Source: a virus
Direction: 5' to 3' (one strand)
DNA: 64,000 nucleotides
IMG/VR virus record: IMGVR_UViG_3300045921_000730
Span: 62,001-126,000 of that record
Shown here piece by piece: positions 2,468 through 59,148 of this stretch. Below the pieces are notes generated by a model. The model did not search any database and was not told the DNA's origin. It saw only the letters and a list, made by a program, of their open reading frames with translations. The position numbers and the translations under genes are program-made. Positions within the stretch are counted from its first letter, which is position 1. Each line of letters starts with the position of its first letter.

Positions 2468-3824
2468 TTAGAAGCAAAACTGAAATTGTATATATAGATT
2501 ATAACCAATATAAAAATAATTTCTAAGAATGATCACCTACAAACTTCCAATTCAGCTAGCTGATGAAGAAAAGAAGATGATCCTTGAATTCCAAAGGATC
2601 CAATCTTCAATGATTCGCACTGCTTACAAACAAGCTGAATTTGGTTGTACCGAAATTTCTGTAAGACAGGAAATTCGAGATAGGTTCAAAAGTCAGCTTG
2701 ATTCCTGGTTCCAACAATCGGCGGTCAAATGTGGGATCGGAATGTTCAAGTCGGAACATGAAACAAATAAATCTGGTCGAATCTTTGGTGGCAAAGGCAA
2801 TCTGATTAGACGTGCAAAGGGACTTATTTCAAAAGAAGAATGGAAACAACGACGGCTTCTTCCGTTGTATCTAATTGGTGAAGCTCCTATCAAAGGCAAT
2901 CGCAAGTTCGAGTTCCACGAGGATCATGTCATTTTTAAGCCATTCAAAGGGACAAAGATCAAGATTGATCTTCCATCAATGAGGAAGAACTGGTCAAAGA
3001 TTTGGAAACAACTCTTGGTCATGGTTTCAGAAAAACAATTACCAATCACAGTCTCTCTAACTACTGATTCCATTTCCTTTTCTTTTGATGATGTTAAGGT
3101 AAAACAAGAGATCAGAAAGATTCCAAAGCCAATCAAGAATAGATATGCAGGCATTGATCTGAACCCAAATTATATTGGCATCTCGGTTTTTGATGGAACA
3201 AAGTTGATTGAAACCAAGATGTTCTCGTTGAAGTCATTGACTGGAAAACATGCCAGTTCATCAAAACTTGAACACGAAACAAGAGAAATCGGACATGCAA
3301 TAGGTAAGTGGCTTCAACATCTACGAGTTGATAAGCTATTTGTCGAAAAACTTGAATTCAAACAGGGTGACAAAGGTATTGGTAAAAACTTTAATCGCTT
3401 AACACAGAACCAATGGAAGAAAATAACTTTAAGGTCAATTCTAGCCAAATACTTCAAGTTATATGAAATCAATGCAGCATATTCCTCAACCATAGGAAAC
3501 ATTCTGCATCCCGAATTACCAGACCCGATAGCCGCAAGTACTGAGATTGCACAACGAGGCTACCGGCTTGTGATACTCAAGAACAAACAGTTCTATCCAA
3601 AACTACCAGCAATAAAGTATCTAGAGGACCTATGGAAGGAAACCAAGATACCTTTGGTCAATAACTGGAAAGAACTACATTCTTGGGTCAAAAACTCGAA
3701 ATTGAAATATCGAGTTCCGGTTCCAGACGAATCGGTTTTTAGAATTTTTCAGTCACCAGCTAGTTTGGTTGGTGTTCTATAGATTTGTATTGCTTATATG
3801 AATTTATAAGGAAAATTTATTTTA
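2468..3824 (+). mobile_element. TnpB-like homing element, copy A (complete)
   Basis: The borders come from comparing three copies. The left end is TTAGAAGCAAAACTGAA, directly after ATATTA at 2462-2467. The right end is GGAAAATTTATTTTA, ending at 3824. The element sits between the ClpP-like gene and primase and holds one gene, with no tnpA. If a guide is read from the right flank it is CACAAACAATCAAATAGTTA. The uninterrupted site would be ATATTA followed by that sequence. See also 57797-59148 (complete) and 24880-25140 (deleted). Confidence 0.75.
2529..3782 (+). CDS. Zinc-ribbon-less TnpB/Cas12-like nuclease, copy A
   Basis: 417 residues. Three RuvC motifs are visible: YAGIDLNPNYIGIS (Asp210), FVEKLEFKQG (Glu273) and PDPIAASTEIA (Asp332). 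In classical TnpB a CxxC...CxxC ribbon separates the last two. Here a short YSSTIGN segment stands in its place with no cysteines. The N-terminal half, basic with a GGKGN turn near 88, would be the nucleic-acid-binding part. The copy at 57853-59106 differs at about 32 positions by hand count (around 92% identity). All three acidic residues are kept in both, so activity is plausible. Similarity to TnpB is judged from motif order only; distant Cas12 relatives are an alternative. Confidence 0.75.
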   Translation: MITYKLPIQLADEEKKMILEFQRIQSSMIRTAYKQAEFGCTEISVRQEIRDRFKSQLDSWFQQSAVKCGIGMFKSEHETNKSGRIFGGKGNLIRRAKGLISKEEWKQRRLLPLYLIGEAPIKGNRKFEFHEDHVIFKPFKGTKIKIDLPSMRKNWSKIWKQLLVMVSEKQLPITVSLTTDSISFSFDDVKVKQEIRKIPKPIKNRYAGIDLNPNYIGISVFDGTKLIETKMFSLKSLTGKHASSSKLEHETREIGHAIGKWLQHLRVDKLFVEKLEFKQGDKGIGKNFNRLTQNQWKKITLRSILAKYFKLYEINAAYSSTIGNILHPELPDPIAASTEIAQRGYRLVILKNKQFYPKLPAIKYLEDLWKETKIPLVNNWKELHSWVKNSKLKYRVPVPDESVFRIFQSPASLVGVL

Positions 3825-3843
3825 CACAAACAATCAAATAGTT

Positions 3844-4848
3844 ATGGAATATACATCTCTCGAAAACATTATTAAGCAGCACGTTTACCTTCCTTCACAA
3901 AGAAAAAATGGGTGGCATCCCGTTCTTTGTAAGATATGCAACGACCATGGCAAAAAAGGTAAACGTGCTGCATTTAAATTTGAAAACAATACAATAGGTT
4001 ATAACTGTTTTAATTGCGGACACACTGCTTTATATGATCCTTCTGTTCATCAAATAATACCAAAAAACATGGTGCAAGTATTGACTGCTTTCGGTATAGA
4101 AGAACATGAATGGAAACAATGTTTGTTGGAAAACTTAAAAAAACATCCAGAGTTTTCTAAGCAAAAACAAAAAGAAATAGATTATAACCCAACAGAAATA
4201 CAACTACCAGAGTTCTTTGTAGAACTAAAAAACGATACAAATGAGTGGTCGCAATATGCAATTGAATATTTAAAAAATCAAAGAGGAATTAATTATAAAG
4301 ATTATCCTTTTTACATTTGCAATAACATAACGAATAACCCTTTATCGAAAAAATGGTACGGAAGATTAATTATTCCAATTTATAAAGATAATAAAATAAT
4401 TTTTTATCAGGGAAGAGATTTATCAAATAAGCGAAAAACAAAATATCTTTCACCAAATGTAGAACGAAGTAAAGTACTATATGGTTTTGACCATTTATTG
4501 ACAAATGAACATTTACCACTATATATTTGCGAAGGGTTCTTTGATGCATTCTTATTGAATGGCGTTGCTGTATTTGGTAGAAAAATTTCCAAAGAACAAA
4601 TTTTTTGGATTAATAAATCACCAAGAAAAAAAGTTGTCGTACCTGATCGTTTTGGTGATAATAGCGATCAATTTGCTGAACAAGCACTAAAACTTGGTTG
4701 GGGCGTAAGTACTCCTGATATTGGGGACGCAAAAGATGTAAGCGAAGCGTTTATGAAATATGGGAAAATATATACACTGCAATCAATAAAAGAAAACACA
4801 CACGAAGGTCTTTTAGCACAAATTAAAACAAAATTTTATTGTGAATAA
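3844..4848 (+). CDS. 61: DNA primase (T4 gp61-like)
   Basis: 334-residue DnaG-type primase that would lay RNA primers for lagging-strand synthesis with the gp41 helicase (20359). An N-terminal zinc-binding region has Cys29, Cys32, Cys55 and Cys58. A TOPRIM segment is visible around LYICEGFFDAFL (about 226-237), followed by VVVPDRFGDNSD and a DIGDAKDVSEA stretch holding the metal-binding acids. Length matches gp61 of T4 (342). The next gene begins 8 bases on. Its upstream region was altered by insertion of the TnpB-like element; the possible empty-site leader is ATATTACACAAACAATCAAA. Confidence 0.88.
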   Translation: MEYTSLENIIKQHVYLPSQRKNGWHPVLCKICNDHGKKGKRAAFKFENNTIGYNCFNCGHTALYDPSVHQIIPKNMVQVLTAFGIEEHEWKQCLLENLKKHPEFSKQKQKEIDYNPTEIQLPEFFVELKNDTNEWSQYAIEYLKNQRGINYKDYPFYICNNITNNPLSKKWYGRLIIPIYKDNKIIFYQGRDLSNKRKTKYLSPNVERSKVLYGFDHLLTNEHLPLYICEGFFDAFLLNGVAVFGRKISKEQIFWINKSPRKKVVVPDRFGDNSDQFAEQALKLGWGVSTPDIGDAKDVSEAFMKYGKIYTLQSIKENTHEGLLAQIKTKFYCE

Positions 4849-4856
4849 AAAATATA

Positions 4857-57817: not shown

Positions 57818-57825
57818 TATAAATA
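57818..57825 (+). promoter_or_regulatory. T4-type late promoter inside copy B
   Basis: TATAAATA 28 bases before the nuclease ATG. Copy A has TATATATA at the equivalent site, so copy B may be better expressed late. Confidence 0.55.
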
Positions 57826-57852
57826 CGTTATAACCAATATAAATTTCTAAGA

Positions 57853-59106
57853 ATGATCACCTACAAACTTCCAATTCAGCTAACTGATGAAGAAAAGAAA
57901 ATGGTCCTTGAATTCCAGAGGATCCAGTCTTCAATGATCCGTTCTGCATATAAGCAAGCCGAATTTGGTTGTACCGAAATTTCTATAAGACAGGAAATTC
58001 GAGATAGGTTCAAAAGTCAGCTTGATTCCTGGTTCCAGCAATCTGCTGTTAAATATGGAATAGGGATGTTCAAATCAGATCATGAAACTGGTCGATCTGG
58101 TCGAATCTTTGGTGGCAAAGGCAATCTGATTAGACGTGCAAAAAGGCTCATTTCAAAAGAAGAATGGAAACAAAAACGACTTCTTCCGTTGTATCTGATT
58201 GGTGAAGCTCCAGCCAAAGGAAATCGCAAGTTTGAGTTCCATGAAGATTATGTCATTTTTAAGCCATTCAAAGGGACCAAGATCAAAATCGATCTTCCTA
58301 ACATGAGGAAGAACTGGTCGAGAATGTGGAACCAGCTCTTGGTCATGGTTTCAGAAAAACAAATACCAATCACTGTTTCTTTGACCACCGACTTCATATC
58401 CTTTTCTTTTGATGATGTTAAGGTAAAACAAGAGATCAGAAAGATTCCAAAACCAATCAAGAATAGATATGCAGGCATTGATCTGAACCCAAATTATATT
58501 GGCATTTCTGTTTTTGATGGAACAAAACTGATTGAAACCAGATTGTTTTCATTAAAGACATTAACTGGAAAGAATGCCAGTGCTTCAAAACTTGAACATG
58601 AAACAAGAGAAATTGGGCATGCAATAGGTAAGTGGCTTCAGCATCTACGAGTTGACAAGTTGTTCATCGAAAAACTAGAATTCAAACAAGGCAATAAGGG
58701 AATTGGAAAGAACTTCAACCGCTTAACACAAAATCAATGGAAGAAAATAACCCTAAAGGCGATCCTAGCTAAGTACTTCAAACTGTATGAAATCAATGCT
58801 GCTTATAGTTCGACCATTGGTAACATTCTGCATCCCGAATTACCAGACCCGGTAGCAGCTAGTACTGAGATTGCACAACGAGGCTACCGGCTTGTGATAC
58901 TCAAGAACAAACAGTTCTATCCAAAACTACCAGTAGTATCGTATCTAGAGGACCTATGGAAGGAAACCGAGATACCTTTGGTCAATAACTGGAAAGAACT
59001 ACATTCTTGGGTCAAAAACTCGAAATTGAAATATCGGGTTCCGGTTCCAGATGAGTCGGTTTTCAGAATTTTCCAGTCGCCAGCTAGTTTGGTTGGTGTT
59101 CTATAG
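57853..59106 (+). CDS. Zinc-ribbon-less TnpB/Cas12-like nuclease, copy B
   Basis: 417 residues, no frameshift or stop against copy A at 2529; about 32 substitutions, mostly conservative. RuvC Asp210, Glu273 and Asp332 are kept, with no Cys ribbon between the last two. The frame conservation at this divergence suggests both copies have been under selection. A weak ribosome-binding site (TCTAAGA) precedes the ATG in both copies. Confidence 0.75.
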   Translation: MITYKLPIQLTDEEKKMVLEFQRIQSSMIRSAYKQAEFGCTEISIRQEIRDRFKSQLDSWFQQSAVKYGIGMFKSDHETGRSGRIFGGKGNLIRRAKRLISKEEWKQKRLLPLYLIGEAPAKGNRKFEFHEDYVIFKPFKGTKIKIDLPNMRKNWSRMWNQLLVMVSEKQIPITVSLTTDFISFSFDDVKVKQEIRKIPKPIKNRYAGIDLNPNYIGISVFDGTKLIETRLFSLKTLTGKNASASKLEHETREIGHAIGKWLQHLRVDKLFIEKLEFKQGNKGIGKNFNRLTQNQWKKITLKAILAKYFKLYEINAAYSSTIGNILHPELPDPVAASTEIAQRGYRLVILKNKQFYPKLPVVSYLEDLWKETEIPLVNNWKELHSWVKNSKLKYRVPVPDESVFRIFQSPASLVGVL

Positions 59107-59148
59107 ATTTGTATTACTTATATGAATTTATATGGAAAATTTATTTTA

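Follow-up and report, generated by a model that had tools for sequence, protein, structure and literature searches.

Zinc-less, IS607-derived TnpB-like elements in phage genomes as candidate RNA-guided homing elements

Copies of the element and their surroundings

A TnpB-like element, discussed here as a putative RNA-guided homing element of phages, is present in three copies in the window, the stretch of 64,000 nucleotides that corresponds to positions 62001-126000 of the virus record IMGVR_UViG_3300045921_000730 (244,293 bp). Two copies are complete and encode a nuclease, while the third is internally deleted (Table 1). The 15-base ends AGAAGCAAAACTGAA and GGAAAATTTATTTTA are exact in all three. 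As pointed out in a first-pass annotation of this DNA, every one of them starts directly after the hexamer ATATTA, which ends at 2467, 57796, and 24879, respectively. The first two bases after ATATTA are CA in the deleted copy and TT in the others.

The first-pass annotation had listed these three copies with exact positions and shared ends, but the count was too low: the record as a whole holds five, two of them outside the window. The fourth (record positions 1-1163) is cut by the start of the contig, with the frame open from residue 46. The fifth (at approximately 169742-170556 of the record) carries an in-frame internal deletion and is preceded by ATATTA. A sister contig of 20.7 kb (L007), 98% identical to parts of the record, adds two further copies. 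Among the seven copies, three lack parts of the gene yet retain both ends and the guide scaffold. Scanning with the left-end 15-mer yielded mostly chance matches.

Table 1. Features of the TnpB-like element and its insertion sites (window coordinates)
Feature	Position	Strand	Remarks
Element copy 1, complete	2468..3824	+	1357 bp; between ClpP-like protease gene and primase gene
Element copy 2, complete	57797..59148	+	1352 bp; inside EDxHD homing endonuclease gene
Element copy 3, internally deleted	24880..25140	+	261 bp; short left end plus 3' ~245 nt; no nuclease
TnpB-like nuclease of copy 1	2529..3782	+	417 aa; RuvC residues D210, E273, D332
TnpB-like nuclease of copy 2	57853..59106	+	417 aa; 92% identical to that of copy 1
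ATATTA of copy 1	2462..2467	+	Putative target-adjacent motif
ATATTA before copy 3	24874..24879	+	
ATATTA before copy 2	57791..57796	+	Within endonuclease gene
Guide-RNA scaffold of copy 1	3585..3824	+	Overlaps 3' end of gene and right end
Guide-RNA scaffold of copy 2	58909..59148	+	
Predicted guide of copy 1	3825..3844	+	Right flank; length assumed; from TnpB biology
Predicted guide of copy 3	25141..25160	+	Would cover start of next gene; length assumed; inference
Predicted guide of copy 2	59149..59168	+	Would target intact endonuclease allele; length assumed; inference
EDxHD (Vsr-like) homing endonuclease, 5' part	56878..57796	+	Split by copy 2
Same EDxHD homing endonuclease gene, 3' part	59149..59786	+	Split by copy 2

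The TnpB-like nuclease

The TnpB-like identity that had been proposed for the encoded protein is supported by two lines of evidence. The D-E-D triad of the RuvC nuclease (D210, E273, and D332) is invariant in 29 of 29 aligned members of the family, and an AlphaFold2 model of the copy 2 protein, built from window and viral-contig sequences only (mean predicted local distance difference test score of 83), gave Cas12f, Cas12k, and Fanzor2 (E values of 2e-8 to 5e-5) as well as the TnpB proteins of ISFba1 and ISDra2 among its top fold matches. These matches are distant, with template modeling scores of about 0.35-0.5; Cas12f, Cas12k, and Fanzor2 are alike in fold but share only 8-14% sequence identity, and the window element is not eukaryotic. 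The window also encodes a canonical TnpB, to which the family profile aligned only weakly (probability of 5%, E value of 0.007), the catalytic motifs being in the same order. The zinc ribbon (TNB domain), expected between RuvC-II and RuvC-III, is absent: none of the 29 members has a CxxC sequence, and a short loop is found instead.

No Pfam, NCBIfam, or PHROGs family was matched above chance by the window proteins, nor was any solved structure matched by sequence, while distant members of the family reach TIGR01766 only below its cut-off. The family is invisible to current protein libraries. The data support the view that the 417-residue proteins constitute a divergent TnpB/Cas12-type family with a RuvC nuclease triad; as the zinc ribbon is missing and no curated family was matched, they are filed as TnpB-like rather than as canonical TnpB. 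Between copies, the ratio of nonsynonymous to synonymous substitution rates (dN/dS) is 0.075-0.098 at a synonymous divergence (dS) of 0.38-0.60, with a dN/dS of 0.08 for copy 1 against copy 2. This dS, together with the low dN/dS, indicates that the full-length copies are old and separately constrained rather than fresh duplicates.

The right end and its predicted guide RNA

The earlier proposal that the guide is the right flank gained support from a structured, conserved RNA at the right end. The 3'-terminal 240 nucleotides have a shared fold, with 96% of cells paired, in which 10 base pairs were changed on both sides against 2.0 expected in shuffles (reached in 0 of 500 shuffles). Folding of single sequences gave z scores of -3.3 to -5.7, the strongest being that of deleted copy 3 (-5.7). 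The conserved, covarying RNA extends into the 3' part of the gene, where synonymous sites are constrained: their identity in the last 65 codons versus the rest is 0.90 versus 0.73 for copies 1 and 2, and 0.68 versus 0.42 for copy 1 and its closest relative, located on contig L154 (permutation p of 0.001-0.004). Relatives whose proteins are 65-68% identical have the same right terminus GGAAAATTTATTTTA, and right termini resembling TATTTTA recur across the family. No Rfam family was matched in the element. The RNA predicted from this region would have as its guide whatever sequence lies to the right of the terminus, as in known TnpBs.

The left-flank motif and empty insertion sites

ATATTA is found upstream of all four record copies with a readable left flank. 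Its frequency in the genome is 8.6e-4 per position (422 occurrences on both strands), and the probability of three further sites agreeing with the first by chance is 6.4e-10. One copy on the sister contig is preceded by CTATTA. The widest shared motif is TATTA, present in five of five left flanks (chance of 4.1e-11) and also at the corresponding place in the closest relative. The motif that was first put forward as ATATTA is supported as a left-flank motif, with TATTA as its stricter form. All ends have a terminal TA, which is compatible with a two-base core and suggests TA in this case; a TT core is seen at the precise insertions of relatives, and the sister-contig sites are not all consistent.

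Exact excision of copy 2 yields an endonuclease of 518 amino acids without a gap at the junction upon alignment with the endonucleases of other phages, from which it follows that the empty site of this copy read ATATTA directly followed by TGTTG.

Empty alleles were found in related phages. Comparison with empty relatives in Campylobacter phages shows that the F379 copy (tnpB only) was inserted precisely behind AATATT and the CP220 copy precisely behind TTTATT. In the 10 empty alleles examined from Campylobacter phages, the motif is invariably unchanged, and a 24-nucleotide guide match is perfect in eight, carries one mismatch in one, and four mismatches in another. As F379 is empty at the CP220 site and CP220 is empty at the F379 site, the predicted guide of each phage matches the empty allele of the other. 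Phage CJLB-12 is likewise empty at the F379 site. The matched empty alleles are the strongest evidence that homing would have real targets, and F379 and CP220 make the idea directly testable in isolates; the homologues concerned are only 36-38% identical to the window protein. Filled and empty pairs from Lak-B and WX1 phages were left out of the motif, as their junctions had diverged or could be placed only to within a few bases. The guide-matched empty alleles predicted in the first-pass annotation are thus present in related phages, but none were found for the sites of the window itself, the predicted empty alleles of which consist of ATATTA followed by TGTTGTTTCATATATTTG, CACAAACAATCAAATAG, or CAAGGAGAGAACTTAATG. 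Within the genome, none of the seven guides has another TATTA-preceded target.

The CP220 element (L137, 2685-4400) starts within tnpA, and its left junction abuts the motif without loss of target, which marks it as a 5'-truncated yet precise insertion. In phage CP21, a different element, annotated as belonging to the ISCaje3 family (149338-152407), lies where CP220 has its copy, known as ISCaje4.

Family distribution and relation to IS607

When scanned with the family alignment, viral contigs yielded 64 loci and 84,980 prokaryote genomes only 5; copies without the C-terminal half were missed because both family scans used motifs from that half. Judged from these sequences, the family is a mostly viral, little-noticed branch of the TnpB family. 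In the closest relative (68% identity), a TnpA of 197 amino acids is encoded directly upstream of tnpB and scores 166 bits against the cut-off of 110. TnpA proteins above the cut-off of NF033518 (IS607 transposase) are also specified by Campylobacter phage WX1, an uncultured phage of 636 kb, and others, and tnpA of the relatives overlaps or abuts tnpB. By the pairing of tnpB with an IS607 tnpA in the closest relative, the window element is IS607-derived, although not a complete IS607 element, as the record lacks a complete TnpA. In all 244 kb, neither a complete IS607 serine transposase nor a Y1 transposase (PF01797) was found; the sole TnpA remnant (record positions 49783-49935) adjoins a canonical zinc-finger TnpB. 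The absence of a transposase, noted at first for the window, thus extends to the whole record as far as complete genes are concerned, but the lineage is that of IS607 and the nearest relatives keep TnpA. An IS200/IS605 origin, considered on account of short hairpins near both ends, was rejected, since there is no Y1 transposase and the relatives carry the resolvase-type TnpA of IS607.

The TnpB of the IS607 element ISFba1 has been studied experimentally, and the motifs AGGAG and GAGGG have been described for IS607 TnpBs (PMC11061315). The window element resembles the IS607 family in the match of its relatives' TnpA to NF033518, in the putative right-end RNA, and in the precise insertion seen in relatives. 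It differs in the lack of a complete TnpA, of the zinc ribbon, and of an Rfam RNA match, as well as in its TATTA motif. The ISCaje4 element of CP220 belongs to the same protein family (approximately 36% identity), has a similar right-end motif, and is precisely inserted after TATT. It was published as an IS200/IS605 element of the IS608 subgroup in a 2010 paper that also describes elements with TnpB alone in phages of the CP220 type, no homing role being proposed in the available part (PMC2853527). Contrary to that published label, the TnpA remnant of ISCaje4 and the intact TnpA of WX1 are of the resolvase type, i.e., IS607.

The family also occurs in Lak phages as TnpA-TnpB pairs with recoding (TAG=Q), such as that of Lak-C1 (L147, 4500-5873). 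One Lak pair lies directly upstream of an EDxHD endonuclease gene, and an internally deleted version in Lak-A2 (L231) has kept its 3' end. Canonical zinc-finger TnpBs of other families are encoded at 56-997 of the window and at 48470-49711 and 50149-51417 of the record; a truncated IS607 TnpA is present upstream of that at 48470-49711.

RNA-guided homing and alternative explanations

The combined observations are best explained by a phage-specialised, IS607-derived TnpB family whose members are most likely RNA-guided homing elements, an interpretation to which we assign a probability of roughly 70%. The 3' end of tnpB and the right end of the element would give rise to a guide RNA, the guide being the right flank and, thus, the former insertion site. 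A TATTA-requiring nuclease would then cut the empty allele (TATTA plus target) of a co-infecting phage, and phage recombination would repair the break from the filled allele, thereby copying the element. The filled allele would be immune because the element parts the motif from the target. New sites were probably colonized first with the help of an IS607 TnpA, of which this genome no longer has a complete version. Deleted copies that keep the scaffold might act as guide-only satellites, driven in trans by intact nucleases.

A gene drive of this kind on plasmids, together with TnpB retention, has been published for IS200/IS605 elements; there, empty alleles are eliminated by the nuclease, which takes its guide from the right flank, and inheritance is biased as a result (PMC11870625). 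Unlike in that study, the present case concerns phage genomes and a putative drive by an IS607-derived family. The free-standing homing endonucleases of phages (EDxHD/Vsr-like, phrog_3339), one of which is interrupted by copy 2, are likewise selfish and cut the empty allele in co-infecting phages. They do so with a fixed DNA-binding surface, whereas in the TnpB-like element an RNA copied from the insertion site would select the target. If this is true, such an element would amount to a homing endonuclease that acquires a new target with each insertion, phage co-infection supplying the targets. Neither phage-phage homing by an RNA-programmed nuclease nor a mostly viral, zinc-less, IS607-derived family engaged in it was found in the open-licence literature searched, which does not prove absence. 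A more far-reaching version, considered less likely than not, is that a virus-specialised, zinc-less lineage has largely exchanged transposition for phage-phage homing, with nuclease-free, guide-only satellites that are driven in trans and capable of invading and inactivating conventional homing endonuclease genes.

Several findings weigh against homing. The constraint on the last 65 codons is weaker under a circular-shift control than under permutation (48 of 370 shifts within the genome and 7 of 272 against the closest relative). Searches for empty alleles of the window's own sites via the neighbouring primase, exonuclease, and downstream genes returned no close phage relative. Of 34 further phage contigs that carry the family, at least 10 have an IS607 TnpA above the cut-off; the remaining 24 have none above it, several of these carrying two to four tnpB copies, and all are fragments. 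Partial copies in other phages show no clear bias towards retention of the 3' end, which leaves the guide-only satellites conjectural. The right flanks of both sister-contig copies sit unoccupied in this genome after AAAGTA and TTGTAA instead of TATTA, and one left flank of these copies reads CATTA here. At face value, these two right flanks are empty alleles without the motif, an outcome that the first-pass annotation had named as refuting its inference, at least one of them being located at a rearrangement: one sister copy joins a left flank at record position 12137 to a right flank at approximately 206533, places that this genome has about 50 kb from each other. This suggests that copies also recombine or that the assembly is imperfect, and the motif-less sites may be recombined insertions, insertions made by TnpA, or assembly joins. 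The sister copy in question is internally deleted (L007, 3949-4714, versus L127:12137 and L135:633, in inverted orientation).

The main rival explanation is that the copies are plain IS607 insertion sequences with their deletion derivatives, moved in trans by a TnpA from another phage or the host, in which case ATATTA would be a preference of the transposase and TnpB a retention device or a passenger. The TnpA genes upstream of tnpB in the closest relative and others, the truncated TnpA beside a canonical TnpB in this genome, the TA at all ends, the deletion derivatives with both ends kept, and the two sister-contig right flanks that do not follow TATTA all fit this explanation. IS607 recombinases are generally regarded as requiring hardly more than a dinucleotide, which leaves a motif of five to six bases at every left flank unexplained. 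Moreover, guide and nuclease are maintained, as shown by the dN/dS (0.08) and the conservation of the RNA, and multi-copy contigs without TnpA are common, albeit as fragments. This explanation is considered unlikely; it and homing may both hold, in that TnpA may found sites which TnpB then spreads.

Phage-encoded regulators derived from TnpB (TldR) are known (PMC13418256), and the position of the copies beside or inside genes would suit a catalytically dead, RNA-guided regulator of this type. Such a function is highly improbable, as all three catalytic residues are invariant in the 29 members and the many dispersed insertions with allele-specific right flanks resemble a mobile element. Mis-joining of repeats in a metagenomic contig, to which the contig start within a copy and the joined distant flanks on the sister contig could point, is to be doubted just as strongly: with a dS of 0.38-0.60, the copies are not collapsed repeats, the endonuclease sequence is coherent on both sides of copy 2, and the same architecture occurs in isolate phages. 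A self-splicing intron or IStron that restores the endonuclease gene in RNA would account for the frame regained upon exact removal of copy 2 but is the least credible possibility, since the element contains no Rfam intron and is too short, with just ~60 and ~42 non-coding bases around the open reading frame, and the other copies are intergenic.

Other features of the phage genome

The only Rfam group I intron match lies at 31189-31410 of the window, in a split DNA polymerase gene. In the gap of the same gene, an EDxHD-type homing endonuclease is encoded on the opposite strand (29408-31024). A permuted, beta-type transfer-messenger RNA is called by Rfam at 1118-1441, close downstream of a canonical TnpB gene. 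Two long open reading frames appear, as judged by eye from their translations, to carry intein-like insertions: one resembling ribonucleotide reductase (12009-17294) and one resembling a type II topoisomerase subunit (5066-8863), the latter with an extra open reading frame (6934-8160) inside.

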